From NCBI GenBank assembly GCA_017937805.1, contig JAGBCX010000046.1, positions 1-36,857 on the forward strand: DNA of 36,857 nucleotides, read 5' to 3'. The position numbers were made by a program, and so were the translations under genes. The stretch is from Alistipes sp. GTDB taxonomy: Bacteria; Bacteroidota; Bacteroidia; Bacteroidales; Rikenellaceae. The notes beneath the pieces were generated by a model. The model worked only from the letters and a program-made list of their open reading frames with translations, did no database searches and was not told the DNA's origin. Numbering within the stretch: the first letter of the stretch is position 1; each line of letters opens with the position of its first letter. Positions 20,912 to 27,184 of the stretch are shown piece after piece.

Positions 20912-22180
20912 CTACAATCTACCGTCTACAATATCTCTTGGCAATACGCCTTTGACATCGTATATTACAGCATTATCCTTCACGAGTTTTGTCACATCCA
21001 ACGACTTAAACTCATTGTGTGCAACTGCCATTATTGCAGCATCAAACTTATTGGTAGGCAACTCATTTGTTACGACAAGTCCATACTCGTGTTCTGCAAT
21101 TGCAGGATTTGCCCAAGGATCATAAATAGTGATATTCAAGTTATACTCTTTCAAGGCATTGACAATATCAACAACCTTTGTATTACGAACATCCGGACAG
21201 TTCTCCTTAAAAGTAAAACCGAGTATTACAATATCTGAGTGCAATACTTGTATGCCCTTCTTTAACATTAATTTAACGACCTGATTAGCTACATATTCGC
21301 CCATGCCATCATTCATACGGCGACCAGCCAAAATAATCTCCGGATTATATCCATAACGTTGAGCACACTGTGCCAAGTAATATGGATCAACTCCAATACA
21401 GTGACCACCTACCAATCCCGGCTTAAATGGCAAAAAGTTCCATTTTGTAGAAGCAGCCTCCAAAACATCAAGGGTATCAATACCCATCTTTGTAAAGATT
21501 CTCGACAACTCATTCACGAAAGCAATATTTATATCGCGTTGTGAATTTTCGATAACCTTTGCAGCCTCTGCAACCTTAATTGTTGGAGCAAGATGAGTTC
21601 CCGCAGTGATTACCGAAGAGTACACCTCGTTCACATACTCTCCAATTTCAGGTGTTGAGCCAGATGTCACCTTCTTAATCTTCTCTACTGTGTGTAACTT
21701 ATCACCCGGATTGATACGCTCCGGCGAATAGCCAGCAAAGAAGTCCTCGTTAAATTTGAGCCCACTAACTTTCTCTACAACAGGTAGACACTCATCCTCT
21801 GTAACGCCCGGATAAACTGTTGACTCATACACAACAACATCACCTTTTGAAATAACCTTTCCAACGGTTGTACTAGCACCATACAAAGGTGTCAAATCAG
21901 GGTTATTATTCTCATCAACGGGTGTTGGTACAGCAACAACATAGAAATTACAATCCTTAATATCCTCCAATTTTGTAGTGCATACAAATCCATGGTTATT
22001 TATTGCATCCTGCAACAATTCATCACTCACTTCAAGTGTTGCATCGTGACCTGCCATCAAAGCATCTACTCTGCGCTGACTCATATCAAAACCTATTGTT
22101 TGATATTTTGTTGAAAATAAACGAGCCAATGGTAATCCTACATAACCAAGTCCAATCACACAAATTTTAGTCTCTTTCAT
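20912..22180 (-). CDS. UDP-N-acetyl-D-galactosamine/hexosamine 6-dehydrogenase (WbpO/TviB-like)
   Basis: A 422-residue nucleotide-sugar dehydrogenase performing a two-step NAD-dependent oxidation of C6 to a carboxylate. The N-terminal Rossmann motif is GLGYVGLP (10-17), and the catalytic cysteine Cys261 lies in [29 protein letters not shown] in the C-terminal domain is the version seen in TviB/WbpO-type enzymes rather than in UDP-glucose dehydrogenase. Pairing with a WbpP-like 4-epimerase 31 bases upstream suggests UDP-GalNAc as substrate and UDP-GalNAcA as product. UDP-GlcNAc or UDP-ManNAc (WecC) remain possible, but no WecB partner specific to ManNAc is seen. Confidence 0.88.
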
Positions 22181-22211
22181 ATCTTTTGGTTTTTATAGAT
22201 TATTACAATTC

Positions 22212-23186
22212 TTACAAATTATTTTTATACCACTCTATTGCCTCATCAAGACCTCTCTTAAAATCATATTCCGGCTCATATCCGAGCATCTTCTGAGCCT
22301 TTGAGATATCCGCATTGGAGTGCTTTATATCTCCTTTTCTATCCGGACCAAATATTGGTTCTATATCCTTACGCAGAGCGTGTGTCAGAGCGTGATAAAT
22401 GTCTATCAAGTACTCTCTACCTCCATAAGCAATATTGAAAGCCTCTCCGGCACACTCACTCGGAGCCAAACATGCCTTCAAATTTGCTTCTATAACATTT
22501 TCGATATAGGTAAAATCTCGACTTTGTTTTCCATCGCCATTGATAGTTGGCTGTTCATCGTTAAGCAATTGCTTTATAAACTTCGGAATCACTGCTGCAT
22601 ACGCTCCATGTGGATCCTGACGGCGACCAAATACATTGAAATAGCGCATTCCGTACGTATCCAAACCGTAATGCCTTGTATATTGCTTTGCCCACTCTTC
22701 ATCACAACGCTTGGTCAATGCATACGGTGAGAGCAGATTGCCCTCTACACCTTCTCTCTTAGGTAGATGTTCTTCATCTCCATATACCGAAGAGCTCGAT
22801 GCATAAACAAACTTTTTTACTCCACACTGACGAGCCGCTTCCAACATATTGAGTGTTCCCTGTATATTGTTGGCACAATAGAAAAGAGGCATCTCAATTG
22901 AGCGTGGCACACTTCCCCATGCAGCCTGATTAAGAACATAGTCCACTCCCTTGCAAGCCTCAACACACGTATTAAAATCTTTGATATCTCCCTTGATAAA
23001 CTCGTAATTTGGGTTATCAACTAACATATCCACATTCGCCTGTTTTCCTGTACTCAAATCATCTAAACAACGAACACGATAGCCCATATCGAGTATCGCT
23101 TCGCATAGGTTAGAACCGATAAAACCTGCTCCGCCTGTCACCAAAAAAAGTGAATCCTTCGGAAAAACTAAATGTTTGTATGCCAT
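22212..23186 (-). CDS. UDP-N-acetylglucosamine 4-epimerase (WbpP/TviC-like)
   Basis: A 324-residue extended short-chain dehydrogenase with TGGAGFIGS (17-25), the SSSVYGDEEHLPKRE block, catalytic YALTK (Tyr155, Lys159) and the family-typical GSVPRSI loop (91-97) seen in WbpP enzymes that prefer N-acetylated sugars. It interconverts UDP-GlcNAc and UDP-GalNAc, supplying the neighbouring WbpO-like dehydrogenase. The FNVFGRRQDPHGAYAAVIP segment is also characteristic. It lies between ugd (51-base gap) and the wbpO-like gene (31 bases). Confidence 0.9.
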   Translation of the reverse strand: MAYKHLVFPKDSLFLVTGGAGFIGSNLCEAILDMGYRVRCLDDLSTGKQANVDMLVDNPNYEFIKGDIKDFNTCVEACKGVDYVLNQAAWGSVPRSIEMPLFYCANNIQGTLNMLEAARQCGVKKFVYASSSSVYGDEEHLPKREGVEGNLLSPYALTKRCDEEWAKQYTRHYGLDTYGMRYFNVFGRRQDPHGAYAAVIPKFIKQLLNDEQPTINGDGKQSRDFTYIENVIEANLKACLAPSECAGEAFNIAYGGREYLIDIYHALTHALRKDIEPIFGPDRKGDIKHSNADISKAQKMLGYEPEYDFKRGLDEAIEWYKNNL

Positions 23187-23237
23187 ATTCGAAACTTATT
23201 TCTTAATGTTCGACTTGTTTAATATTACTGCTATTTT

Positions 23238-24446
23238 TTAATCTCGTCCAAAGATGTCGCGAGTATAAATTCGCTCTGCGACATCGGCAAGCGACTTGTC
23301 GTTTCGGTTTGCCAAAATCACTCCCGACAACTCCTTAAATCGTTCCAAATCATTCACAACCTCGCAGCCAAAGAACTTCTCTCCTCCCTGCAAAGTCGGT
23401 TCGTAAATCACGACCTCTGCACCCTTCGCCCTCAATCGGCGCATTATGCCCTGTATTGCACTATGGCGGAAATTATCAGAATCGGTCTTCATCGTCAAGC
23501 GATAGATGCCGACAACCATTCGACCGCCACCACTCAACCGTTCTGCCTTATGCAACACCTGCTCCGCAATAAAATCTTTGCGCGTTCTGTTGCTCTCAAC
23601 TATCGCCGACATCATATTCTGCGGAACATCGTCATAGTTCGCCAACAACTGCTTCGTATCCTTCGGTAAGCAATACCCTCCATAGCCAAACGAAGGATTG
23701 TTATAGTGCATTCCGATTCGAGGGTCAAGACCGACACCCCGAATTATCGACTCCGTATCGAGCCCTTTCACCTCAGCGTAGGTATCCAACTCATTGAAAT
23801 AGCTTACTCGCAACGCCAAAAATGTATTGGCAAAGAGTTTCACTGCCTCCGCCTCGGTCAGGCCCATAAATAGAGTCGGAATATCCTGCTTCAATGCCCC
23901 CTGCTGTAACAATGCCGCAAATGTGTGTGCAGCCTTATCGAGGTGTTCATCGTCTTTCGGGCAACCAACAATAATGCGGCTCGGATAGAGGTTGTCGTAC
24001 AACGCCATACTCTCACGCAAAAACTCCGGAGAGAAGAGCAGCTTTGCAGGTGCATACTTCGCACGAGCCATCTCCGTAAATCCAACCGGAACGGTCGATT
24101 TCACAACCATCACTGCATCCGGATTCACCTCCATCACGACCTTTATCACCGCCTCGACTGCCGAAGTGTCGAAGAAATTTCTATCGCTATCGTAGTTTGT
24201 CGGGGTAGCAATCACAACAAAGTCGGCACCACTATATGCCAACTTGGCATCAAGCGTTGCTCGAAGGTTCAAACTCTTCTCAGAGAGGTATTTTTCGATA
24301 TATTCGTCCTGAATTGGCGATTGGCGATTATTCACCTTTTCGACCTTTTCGGGCATTATATCCACAGCAACGACTTCGTTATGCTGAGCCAGGAGTGTCG
24401 CAATCGACATTCCCACATAACCCGTACCTGCTACCGCAATTTTCAT
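23238..24446 (-). CDS. ugd: UDP-glucose 6-dehydrogenase
   Basis: A 402-residue dehydrogenase of the short enterobacterial Ugd type: GTGYVGMS at 7-14, the TPTNYD loop, [17 protein letters not shown], the [17 protein letters not shown] block with catalytic Cys259, and the cap-domain segment [16 protein letters not shown]. It oxidises UDP-glucose to UDP-glucuronate with two NAD. UDP-glucuronate can enter the glycan directly or be converted to other sugars; no such converting enzyme is seen here. It is second in transcription order, 29 bases after the wecA-like gene. Confidence 0.94.
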
Positions 24447-24475
24447 TACCTATAACCTCTAACCGATGAGCAAAA

Positions 24476-25648
24476 CTACATACGGTCCACAACTCTTTGC
24501 AGTGCAACCCAACTCTTATGCTCTTCCATCTTCGTCTTTGCGCCAACTTTTTGCACAAGCTTGGAAATGGCGCTATTGCGAGCTATCTGAACACGCATAA
24601 ATTTGTACAAGCCCATTGTTAATAGCAAGCCGACCACCATCACAACGTAGAATTGTACATCCACTGATGCCCCCAATTTATACGAAATCCACCAACTAAA
24701 TATCACAAGCGTATTGAGCAACAACTCACACACGGTTGTTCCCACGTGCGAAAATCCCAACTCGATAAACAGATGATGCAAATGAGTCTTATCAGGATGA
24801 AATGGCGATGTATGGCGAATAATTCGCATAAACATAACTCTCACCGTATCAAACACAGGAACACACATCACAGCAAGCGTAAACGGTACAAGTCCCATTC
24901 CGCACTCCGCGCATTTTTCACATGCCTCACCAGAGGATATCGTTGCAACCACACAGGTAGACATAACCATACCCATCATCAACGAACCTCCATCACCAAT
25001 AAACATCTTGGAGGTCTTTCCGAACACATTGTGGAAGAAGAATGGCAATAATGCTCCGACCGATATTGCACAAAGAAGCAACATAGTTACACTTCCCGCG
25101 TGGAAGAACATAATACCGAAAGCGATACAAGCCATTATGCAATAGCCGGAAGACAATCCATCAACACCATCAACAAGATTTATTGCATTGATAATTCCGA
25201 CAACAGCCACTATTGTCAATGGCACAGATACCCACATAGGTACCTCTCCAATGCCCCACAGTCCCTGAAAGTCATTTAGCGAAATGCCTGTCATAAATAC
25301 CAACATTACCGTCACGGCAATCTCAATAACGAATCGCAACAGAGGAGAGAGCCCCGCAACATCATCGGCAACACCGACACACAACATAACAGACATAGCC
25401 ACAAACATCGGCAGCAGTGGCTTTATATCCATAAAAGGCGTTGCCACACACAATCCGACCAACAAACCAAAGAAAACCGCAACACCGCCCAAAACAGGGA
25501 CAGGTTCACGCTGCAACTTTCTGCCATTAGGCACATCAACCACCTTGTATCTGAATGCGAATTTAATCACTCGGGCATGAATCAACAAAACCACAAGCAA
25601 GGAGGCAACAAATGCCGCCAACACTCCAAGCAAAGACAAGAATTCCAT
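24476..25648 (-). CDS. wecA: Undecaprenyl-phosphate sugar-1-phosphate transferase (WecA/TagO-like)
   Basis: A 390-residue polyprenyl-phosphate phosphosugar transferase with about ten or eleven membrane segments. Motifs visible are the VADDVAGL Asp pair (95-96), NLVDGVDGLSSG (Asp160, Asp163), FIGDGGS (216-222) and the HLHH motif (289-292) that distinguishes WecA-type GlcNAc-1-P transferases from MraY. It should start the repeat unit by putting GlcNAc-1-phosphate, or a related HexNAc-1-phosphate, on undecaprenyl phosphate. It is the first gene of the polysaccharide run and is preceded by a consensus promoter with a leader of about 180 bases. Confidence 0.93.
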   Translation of the reverse strand: MEFLSLLGVLAAFVASLLVVLLIHARVIKFAFRYKVVDVPNGRKLQREPVPVLGGVAVFFGLLVGLCVATPFMDIKPLLPMFVAMSVMLCVGVADDVAGLSPLLRFVIEIAVTVMLVFMTGISLNDFQGLWGIGEVPMWVSVPLTIVAVVGIINAINLVDGVDGLSSGYCIMACIAFGIMFFHAGSVTMLLLCAISVGALLPFFFHNVFGKTSKMFIGDGGSLMMGMVMSTCVVATISSGEACEKCAECGMGLVPFTLAVMCVPVFDTVRVMFMRIIRHTSPFHPDKTHLHHLFIELGFSHVGTTVCELLLNTLVIFSWWISYKLGASVDVQFYVVMVVGLLLTMGLYKFMRVQIARNSAISKLVQKVGAKTKMEEHKSWVALQRVVDRM

Positions 25649-26060: not shown

Positions 26061-27134
26061 CTACGCGTGCATCATTCGAGATGCCGCCTTATCCCAATCA
26101 ATCAAATTCATATACTCCTTTACAAAATCTGCACGGCGATTTTGATAATCGAGATAGTAGGCATGCTCCCAGACATCAACACACATCAAGGGGTTAAGAT
26201 GGTGACGTATAGGATTATCCGCATCTTTTGTCGGCATAACAGAGAGTTGCCCTTTGCTATTCTCAACCAACCAAACCCACCCCGAGCCGAATAGCCCGAC
26301 CGCCGTTTCAGCAAACTTTTTATTAAACTCTTCAACCGAGCCAAAGTCACGAATAATACGCTCTTTGAGTTTTGCGGGTATCACTTTTTGAACAGGAGTC
26401 AGGCCATCAAAATAGATGCGATGATTCAAGGCTTGTGCCGCATTATTAAATATCGCACCGTCCGATTTCTTTACAATCTCTTCAAGTCCTAAACCCTCGT
26501 ACGGAGTACCCTCGATAAGCCTATTCGTATTGTCAATATAGGTCTTGAAGTGTTTTCCGTAGTGGTAGTCAATAGTCTCTTTGCTCATTGTGGGAGCAAG
26601 CGCATCGGCAGCGTAAGGGAGTGCCGGCAACGCAAATTTCACAGCAGTTGTACTCATAGTAATTTTACCTTTTGGTTTTTGGTTATTTATGTAAATATAT
26701 CCATTCAAATATGTAGCAAATATCAGCCATAACATATACGGCACAAACAACCACGCCGCAGCAGAACGGCGACCTGCCGTATATATTATGTATGCTATCA
26801 CCGTAACATCGAGGGCGAGAATCACGAGCAGACCCATAAACGGACTGCGCAGAGCAAAGAAACAGACACTCCACAAGAAGTTGAGCAATAGCTGCAGCAG
26901 CCACAACCTCAATACGCTCATATCACCCTTTGCCAGCATCGTACCCGCCGAAACTCCGATTAAAACATAGAGAATACTCCACGCAATCGGGAAGACAATA
27001 GCAGGTGGCGTAGCGGGAGATTTTACGAGGTAGGGATACCACTCTTTGAGCGCATCACCCTGAATATACGAGCCGAGCGCACCAATGGCGAAAGCGAGAA
27101 GAATAGGTATAAAATAGGCAAAAAACTTTCTCAT
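26061..27134 (-). CDS. TspO/MBR membrane protein fused to Fe/Mn superoxide dismutase
   Basis: A 357-residue continuous frame with two complete domains. Residues 1-150 are a TspO/MBR (tryptophan-rich sensory/translocator) protein with five membrane segments and the conserved PATPPAIVFPIAWSILYVLIG. Residues 160-357 are a full Fe/Mn superoxide dismutase: ligands His191 (YHYGKH), His238 (AQALNH), Asp320 and His324 (DVWEHAYY), with the outer-sphere Gln234 placed as in iron-type or cambialistic enzymes. The linker NQKPKGKIT looks like translated intergenic DNA, and Met160 (ATG at 26655-26657, weak AAAGG upstream) could start a separate dismutase. TspO binds porphyrins and is linked to oxidative stress, so the pairing is sensible. 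A lost stop codon or a base error in the source sequence would give the same picture. Confidence 0.8.
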   Translation of the reverse strand: MRKFFAYFIPILLAFAIGALGSYIQGDALKEWYPYLVKSPATPPAIVFPIAWSILYVLIGVSAGTMLAKGDMSVLRLWLLQLLLNFLWSVCFFALRSPFMGLLVILALDVTVIAYIIYTAGRRSAAAWLFVPYMLWLIFATYLNGYIYINNQKPKGKITMSTTAVKFALPALPYAADALAPTMSKETIDYHYGKHFKTYIDNTNRLIEGTPYEGLGLEEIVKKSDGAIFNNAAQALNHRIYFDGLTPVQKVIPAKLKERIIRDFGSVEEFNKKFAETAVGLFGSGWVWLVENSKGQLSVMPTKDADNPIRHHLNPLMCVDVWEHAYYLDYQNRRADFVKEYMNLIDWDKAASRMMHA

Positions 27135-27184
27135 AATTGTATCGATTTTGCACTGATTCTTGCAAAGAATAAGCCAAAAAAGCG

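Follow-up and report, generated by a model that had tools for sequence, protein, structure and literature searches.

The gene analysed here joins a TspO/MBR membrane protein and a complete iron/manganese superoxide dismutase (SOD) in a single open frame. It lies in the window (the whole stretch of 36,857 nucleotides that was analysed, from Alistipes sp.), and the in-frame TspO-SOD fusion is real and conserved among related genomes. The explanation favoured here, with somewhat better than even confidence, is that the fused gene came from a tspO-sod pair and provides a membrane-tethered SOD plus, probably, a free SOD from an internal start. The full-length product would be a TspO membrane protein carrying the SOD on a flexible C-terminal linker, and superoxide would be removed at the membrane, next to TspO. 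The old sod start would have been kept inside the frame in most lineages, the window's included, and the same mRNA would probably also yield a free SOD some 198 aa long. We infer that the protein inserts into the membrane, that its SOD is active, that the internal start is used and that the two parts cooperate in function.

The function of TspO has long been disputed, porphyrins and oxidative stress being the leads. A conserved fusion with SOD that likely stems from a gene pair and was probably formed more than once ties TspO genetically to superoxide and makes the connection testable on one polypeptide; should the internal start be used, the gene would also be a clean natural case of one gene giving a tethered and a free enzyme. 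A passage of one article describes TSPO as found together with mitochondrial manganese SOD in liver (PMC4237140). No description of a TspO-SOD fusion was found in the literature searched, most subscription papers lying outside that search; the architecture may also stand, uncommented, in protein databases.

Architecture of the fused protein

The frame comprises 357 aa on the minus strand, from an ATG at 27134 to a TAG at 26061-26063, and the plus-strand translation of 26061-27134 contains stops. The sequence-only reading had placed the gene at these coordinates, which stand, and had left the strand unstated. The features of the gene are as follows.

26061..27134, minus strand: tspO-sod fusion gene, 357 aa plus stop (one open frame; Pfam; 18 other genomes of the genus)
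26691..27104, minus strand: TspO/MBR domain, residues 11-148 (Pfam PF03073; five helices in the model)
26658..26677, minus strand: A-rich stretch, 55% A, before the internal ATG (base composition)
26655..26657, minus strand: internal ATG (Met160), candidate start of a free SOD (matched on A content and folding together by none of 984 other internal Met codons)
26646..26675, minus strand: disordered linker core, residues 154-163 (pLDDT <50; length and sequence differ among relatives)
26400..26639, minus strand: SOD alpha-hairpin domain, residues 166-245, with presumed ligands His191 and His238 (PF00081)
26076..26372, minus strand: SOD C-terminal domain, residues 255-353, with presumed ligands Asp320 and His324 (PF02777)

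The Pfam matches, all above cut-off, are TspO_MBR at residues 11-148 (E 6.8e-37; 126.9 bits against a cut-off of 24), Sod_Fe_N at 166-245 (E 1.5e-25) and Sod_Fe_C at 255-353 (E 1.4e-38); together with the 357-aa frame they bear out the initial description of a TspO domain followed without interruption by a complete dismutase. The five-helix TspO domain proposed at the same time agrees with an AlphaFold2 model (mean pLDDT 87.4, pTM 0.57), in which five long helices are predicted at residues 2-31, 47-67, 72-94, 98-120 and 124-150 and the SOD part is ordered; a pTM of 0.57 gives no confident placement of the two parts relative to each other. The presumed metal ligands H191, H238, D320 and H324, described earlier as intact, are invariant in all 19 fusions of the genus, the window's included, as are Q234 and the TspO residues W32, W52, N85, W88 and W136. 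We take the four ligands to be the counterparts of H26, H73, D156 and H160 of the E. coli FeSOD, with which alignments to solved SODs agree, and Q234 to occupy the position of the active-site Gln of Fe-type SODs; the five TspO residues may map to the aromatic ligand pocket.

The N-terminal part resembles bacterial TspO/MBR proteins (PF03073; 4UC1 and 4RYI, presumably the TspOs of R. sphaeroides and B. cereus, respectively) in its profile match, its detectable similarity to solved TspOs and the five helices of the model. Unlike the solved bacterial TspOs, which have 155-181 aa and no second enzyme, the window protein bears an SOD on a C-terminal linker. The latter is a complete two-domain Fe/Mn SOD with the corresponding ligand residues (1UES, 2.2e-64; 1QNN, 4.2e-64; 1ISA, 4.4e-61) and differs from these stand-alone proteins of 191-192 aa in being preceded in frame by a membrane protein. 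1QNN and 1UES are taken to be the SOD of P. gingivalis and 1ISA the FeSOD of E. coli, all presumably soluble. Relatives of the genus also encode a related SOD fused to another partner, a C-terminal rubredoxin in place of a membrane protein (L055:1528-2262, L110:650-1387 and L056:1345-2262, by Pfam). The L056 frame may, by eye, start with a signal peptide, which would suggest an exported SOD.

Upstream of the gene, many fused relatives show, by eye, a TTTG-containing element some 25-50 nt ahead of the start; that of the window (27161-27166, minus strand) may be a promoter element of the Bacteroidota type.

Distribution and genomic background

The genus search covered 180 genomes, the window's own included, and found the same single-frame fusion in 19 (52-95% identity to the window's protein), among them Rikenellaceae bacteria SIG168, SIG179 and SIG180 and Alistipes sp. 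RGIG7672. One copy (L051, in G212) carries a frameshift near residue 331, in the last part of the SOD, that leaves the junction unaffected; the shift of this SOD end to another frame reflects either decay or an assembly error. Among 393 genomes of the order searched, three more fusions were detected, all in one genus of another family. Seven genomes represent that genus: three fused, one with the two genes apart and three without a match, these last being 70-83% complete and judged at a threshold of E 1e-20. Within a draw of 395 genomes from the phylum, the window's own genome alone matched both parts at E 1e-90, a threshold that could miss more diverged fusions; G437 reached it with the SOD part. 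Other phyla were covered via plasmid and phage records and one pattern scan of genome contigs. Carriage of the fusion by plasmids or phages was rejected, as none of the matching records (0 of 222 and 0 of 228 for plasmids, 0 of 31 for phages) covers 80% of the query.

The fusion is the sole Fe/Mn SOD match in all 19 fused assemblies of the genus (the two matches in G212 are the halves of the one frameshifted gene), although an additional SOD could be missed because the assemblies are incomplete (85% for the window's). It is also the sole substantial TspO in these genomes, apart from an incomplete copy in G181 and a match below threshold in G151. Superoxide reductase occurs in 14 of the 19; it was not found in the other five (G153, G203, G147, G195 and G204), in G247 or in the other family's three fused genomes. 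The match in the window's genome (G000:C74:31894-32142) sits in an open frame of 367 codons and those of 14 relatives in frames of 126-155 codons; this is possibly due to chance. Cytochrome bd oxidase is encoded in four of the 19 (G029, G144, G195 and G204) and also in G101, G247 and G352. Respiratory-chain superoxide was considered as a general reason for the fusion and rejected: cytochrome bd in 4 of 19 gives no general support to a place near a respiratory superoxide source.

The candidate internal start and the predicted membrane face of the SOD

It had been suggested from the sequence that a weak AAAGG ahead of Met160 might let a free dismutase start inside the frame. The motif is present (as AAAAGG), but Shine-Dalgarno pairing is rarely used in Bacteroidota, according to passages of PMC6847099 and PMC9976891, and the relevant signal is the A-rich context; the former source describes initiation as favoured by A at -3, -6, -12 and -13 and by low structure. 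The internal ATG of the window, with an MFE of -2.0, fits this pattern at positions -3, -6 and -13, which are A, and departs from it at -12, which is G; at the 19 best junction ATGs position -3 is mostly A, otherwise G, with T in L043. A Met stands 5-10 residues ahead of the SOD core in 19 of the 22 fused copies, approximately where unfused SODs start, and the 20 nt before the internal ATG contain on average 46% A, against 20% at 160 other Met codons inside these genes.

To build a background, 13 fusion or TspO ORFs were set aside, and 984 internal in-frame Met codons were taken from 123 other mechanically picked ORFs in 12 fetched loci and the window. On A content and folding jointly, less than 1% of these codons match the best junction ATG in 15 of the 19 fusions, and none of them does so in 13, the window's included, with the reservation that Met codons of folded domains are an imperfect control for a linker Met. 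In G144 and G153, the ATG entered in this comparison stands immediately before the SOD core. Among ORF starts, 3-40% do as well as the best junction ATG of the same 15 fusions, which places it within the range of starts. The exceptions, which have no convincing internal start, are G168 (12%), G057 (79%), G180 (5.7%) and G137 (15%). The internal ATG also falls within the least-structured fifth of its ORF in 15 of the 17 rows compared. Since a start-like context is found in 15 of 19 fusions, one gene probably makes both a tethered and a free SOD; the chance that the candidate start is used is put, from such sequence features, at even to fairly good. For the free dismutase proposed at the outset, this supports a start-like internal ATG, from which such a product may be made. 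In having one frame and two expected products, the fusion resembles genes with in-frame internal translation starts, such as cas11b (PMC11899642); the difference is that the candidate start here would descend from the original start of a downstream gene that became fused.

An unlikely reading, and yet the strongest of the rivals, is that the full-length membrane-tethered SOD is the sole product, the start-like ATG being a remnant or a by-product of an A-rich linker. It agrees with the four of 19 fusions that persist without a good internal start and with the weakness of the A excess in synonymous codons (mean z 0.62, 13 of 17 above zero, the rows being related); the K/N/T/Q-rich composition of the linker accounts for much of the A-richness. 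Two observations weigh against it. Fourfold sites are 0.36 identical among 15 representatives, against 0.26 expected by chance, and at this near-saturated divergence neutral survival of the ATG in its A-rich context is unlikely. Furthermore, of the 12 linkers long enough to compare, 10 are more A-rich in the 20 nt just ahead of the ATG than in their more distant upstream part. The same evidence bears on the proposal that the linker is former intergenic DNA: its position does correspond to the intergenic DNA of the unfused pairs in G247 and G101, but it is probably not a mere leftover, because a start-like ATG has been kept in most lineages despite near-saturated synonymous sites.

The face of the membrane on which a tethered SOD would lie is predicted differently by different evidence. 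Of the two sides of the TspO helices, the N-terminal one is richer in Lys and Arg in 21 of 22 fused proteins (the remaining one is a tie) and in 31 of 31 unfused ones, by a count for which the author set the loop limits; with five helices in the inner membrane, this bias predicts an SOD on the outside. Published predictions for other TspOs say inside: passages of PMC2699550 and PMC4237140 give a cytoplasmic C-terminus for the proteins of R. sphaeroides and P. fluorescens. A passage of PMC4237140 also calls the first loop periplasmic, which fits poorly with a cytoplasmic C-terminus in a five-helix protein. The R. sphaeroides TspO made in E. coli is described, in part of PMC2911597, as residing mainly in the inner membrane. 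A doubtful extension of the charge bias is that one gene would serve two compartments, with the TspO N-terminus inside, an Fe-type SOD on the outer face of the inner membrane and the internal start giving a cytosolic SOD.

Slightly more doubtful still is the view that the internal start is mainly used for a free cytosolic SOD, the joined form being minor, tolerated and devoid of special function. That none of the 19 assemblies yielded a second Fe/Mn SOD speaks for it, as do the five of 19 genomes without a superoxide reductase match, which would need a cytosolic SOD if the fused one faces outward. However, 22 genomes have an open frame across the junction, which probably originated on two or more occasions, though unfused pairs exist, and some lineages retain the fusion without a good internal start. 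A sequencing or assembly artefact merging two genes, feared earlier because a one-base shift would expose a TAA, is refuted for practical purposes, as 18 other genomes of the genus at 52-95% identity, with linkers of differing length, share the single open frame across the junction. The relatives are thus not all of the two-gene kind that would have spoken against the fusion. A TAA in G195 and G204 was considered as an inter-domain stop and rejected, being the terminal stop.

Probable origin from a gene pair and probable loss of the SOD part

The favoured derivation of the tethered and free SOD from a gene pair draws on two genomes in which tspO and sod are separate neighbours: G247, of the genus of the distant fusions (29-nt gap), and G101, of the window's genus (49-nt gap), where tspO stands directly before the gene of an SOD that ends in a rubredoxin domain. 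These adjacent unfused pairs make a tspO-sod pair the likely source. TspO occurs in 72 of the 180 genomes of the genus, fused in 19 and adjacent to sod in one; among the matches listed no other TspO lies within 20 kb of an SOD on the same contig, many tspO/sod pairs being on different contigs of draft assemblies. A divergent gene of one family lies directly beside tspO in G247 and beside the fusion in G203, and about 2.6 kb from the fusion in G195, whose member is CorA by Pfam; this shared neighbour suggests an old common locus.

One clade of the SOD tree (100/99) unites 16 of the genus's fused copies; G203, G195 with G204, and the fused copies of the other family, which group with the unfused SOD of G247 (100/94), fall outside it. 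A single origin of all fusions was rejected on this tree (22 fused rows as one clade, p 0.023) and one clade of the 19 genus fusions was not (p 0.143), both p values being optimistic because the constraint groups were chosen after the tree was seen. The rejection of one 22-copy clade suggests two or more fusions. The TspO tree, the backbone of which is weak, gives an unlike picture, with the fused copies of the other family grouping with G101 (92/87) and G247 on a long unplaced branch; it also rejects the 22 fused rows as one clade (p 1.3e-58). An ancestral gene pair, at least two fusions and later losses constitute the simplest reading; alternatively, a fused gene may have split in G247, or parts may have been exchanged.

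TspO without an SOD match occurs in at least 10 genomes of the genus (G046, G152, G036, G158, G120, G028, G027, G005, G043 and G047), the absence of SOD having been checked with an SOD profile for G046 alone, and the SOD part would thus be dispensable there. Eight of them branch among the fused TspOs, with G043 and G047 on other branches of the TspO tree; for G046, placement inside versus beside the seven nearest fused TspOs gave p 0.413. No convincing SOD remnant was seen behind the TspO-only genes at nine loci, and loss of the SOD part is the likeliest cause of these arrangements. In G046, TspO stands alone at the window's locus with the same neighbours by protein similarity: a glycosyltransferase 4, an epimerase and UDP-sugar dehydrogenases on one side, and on the other a VTT protein, an endonuclease/phosphatase and three further genes taken for rpsF, rpsR and rplI by look. 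In the window, the genes for the glycosyltransferase 4, sugar-nucleotide dehydrogenases and the epimerase occupy 20912-25648, adjoining the fusion on the same strand.
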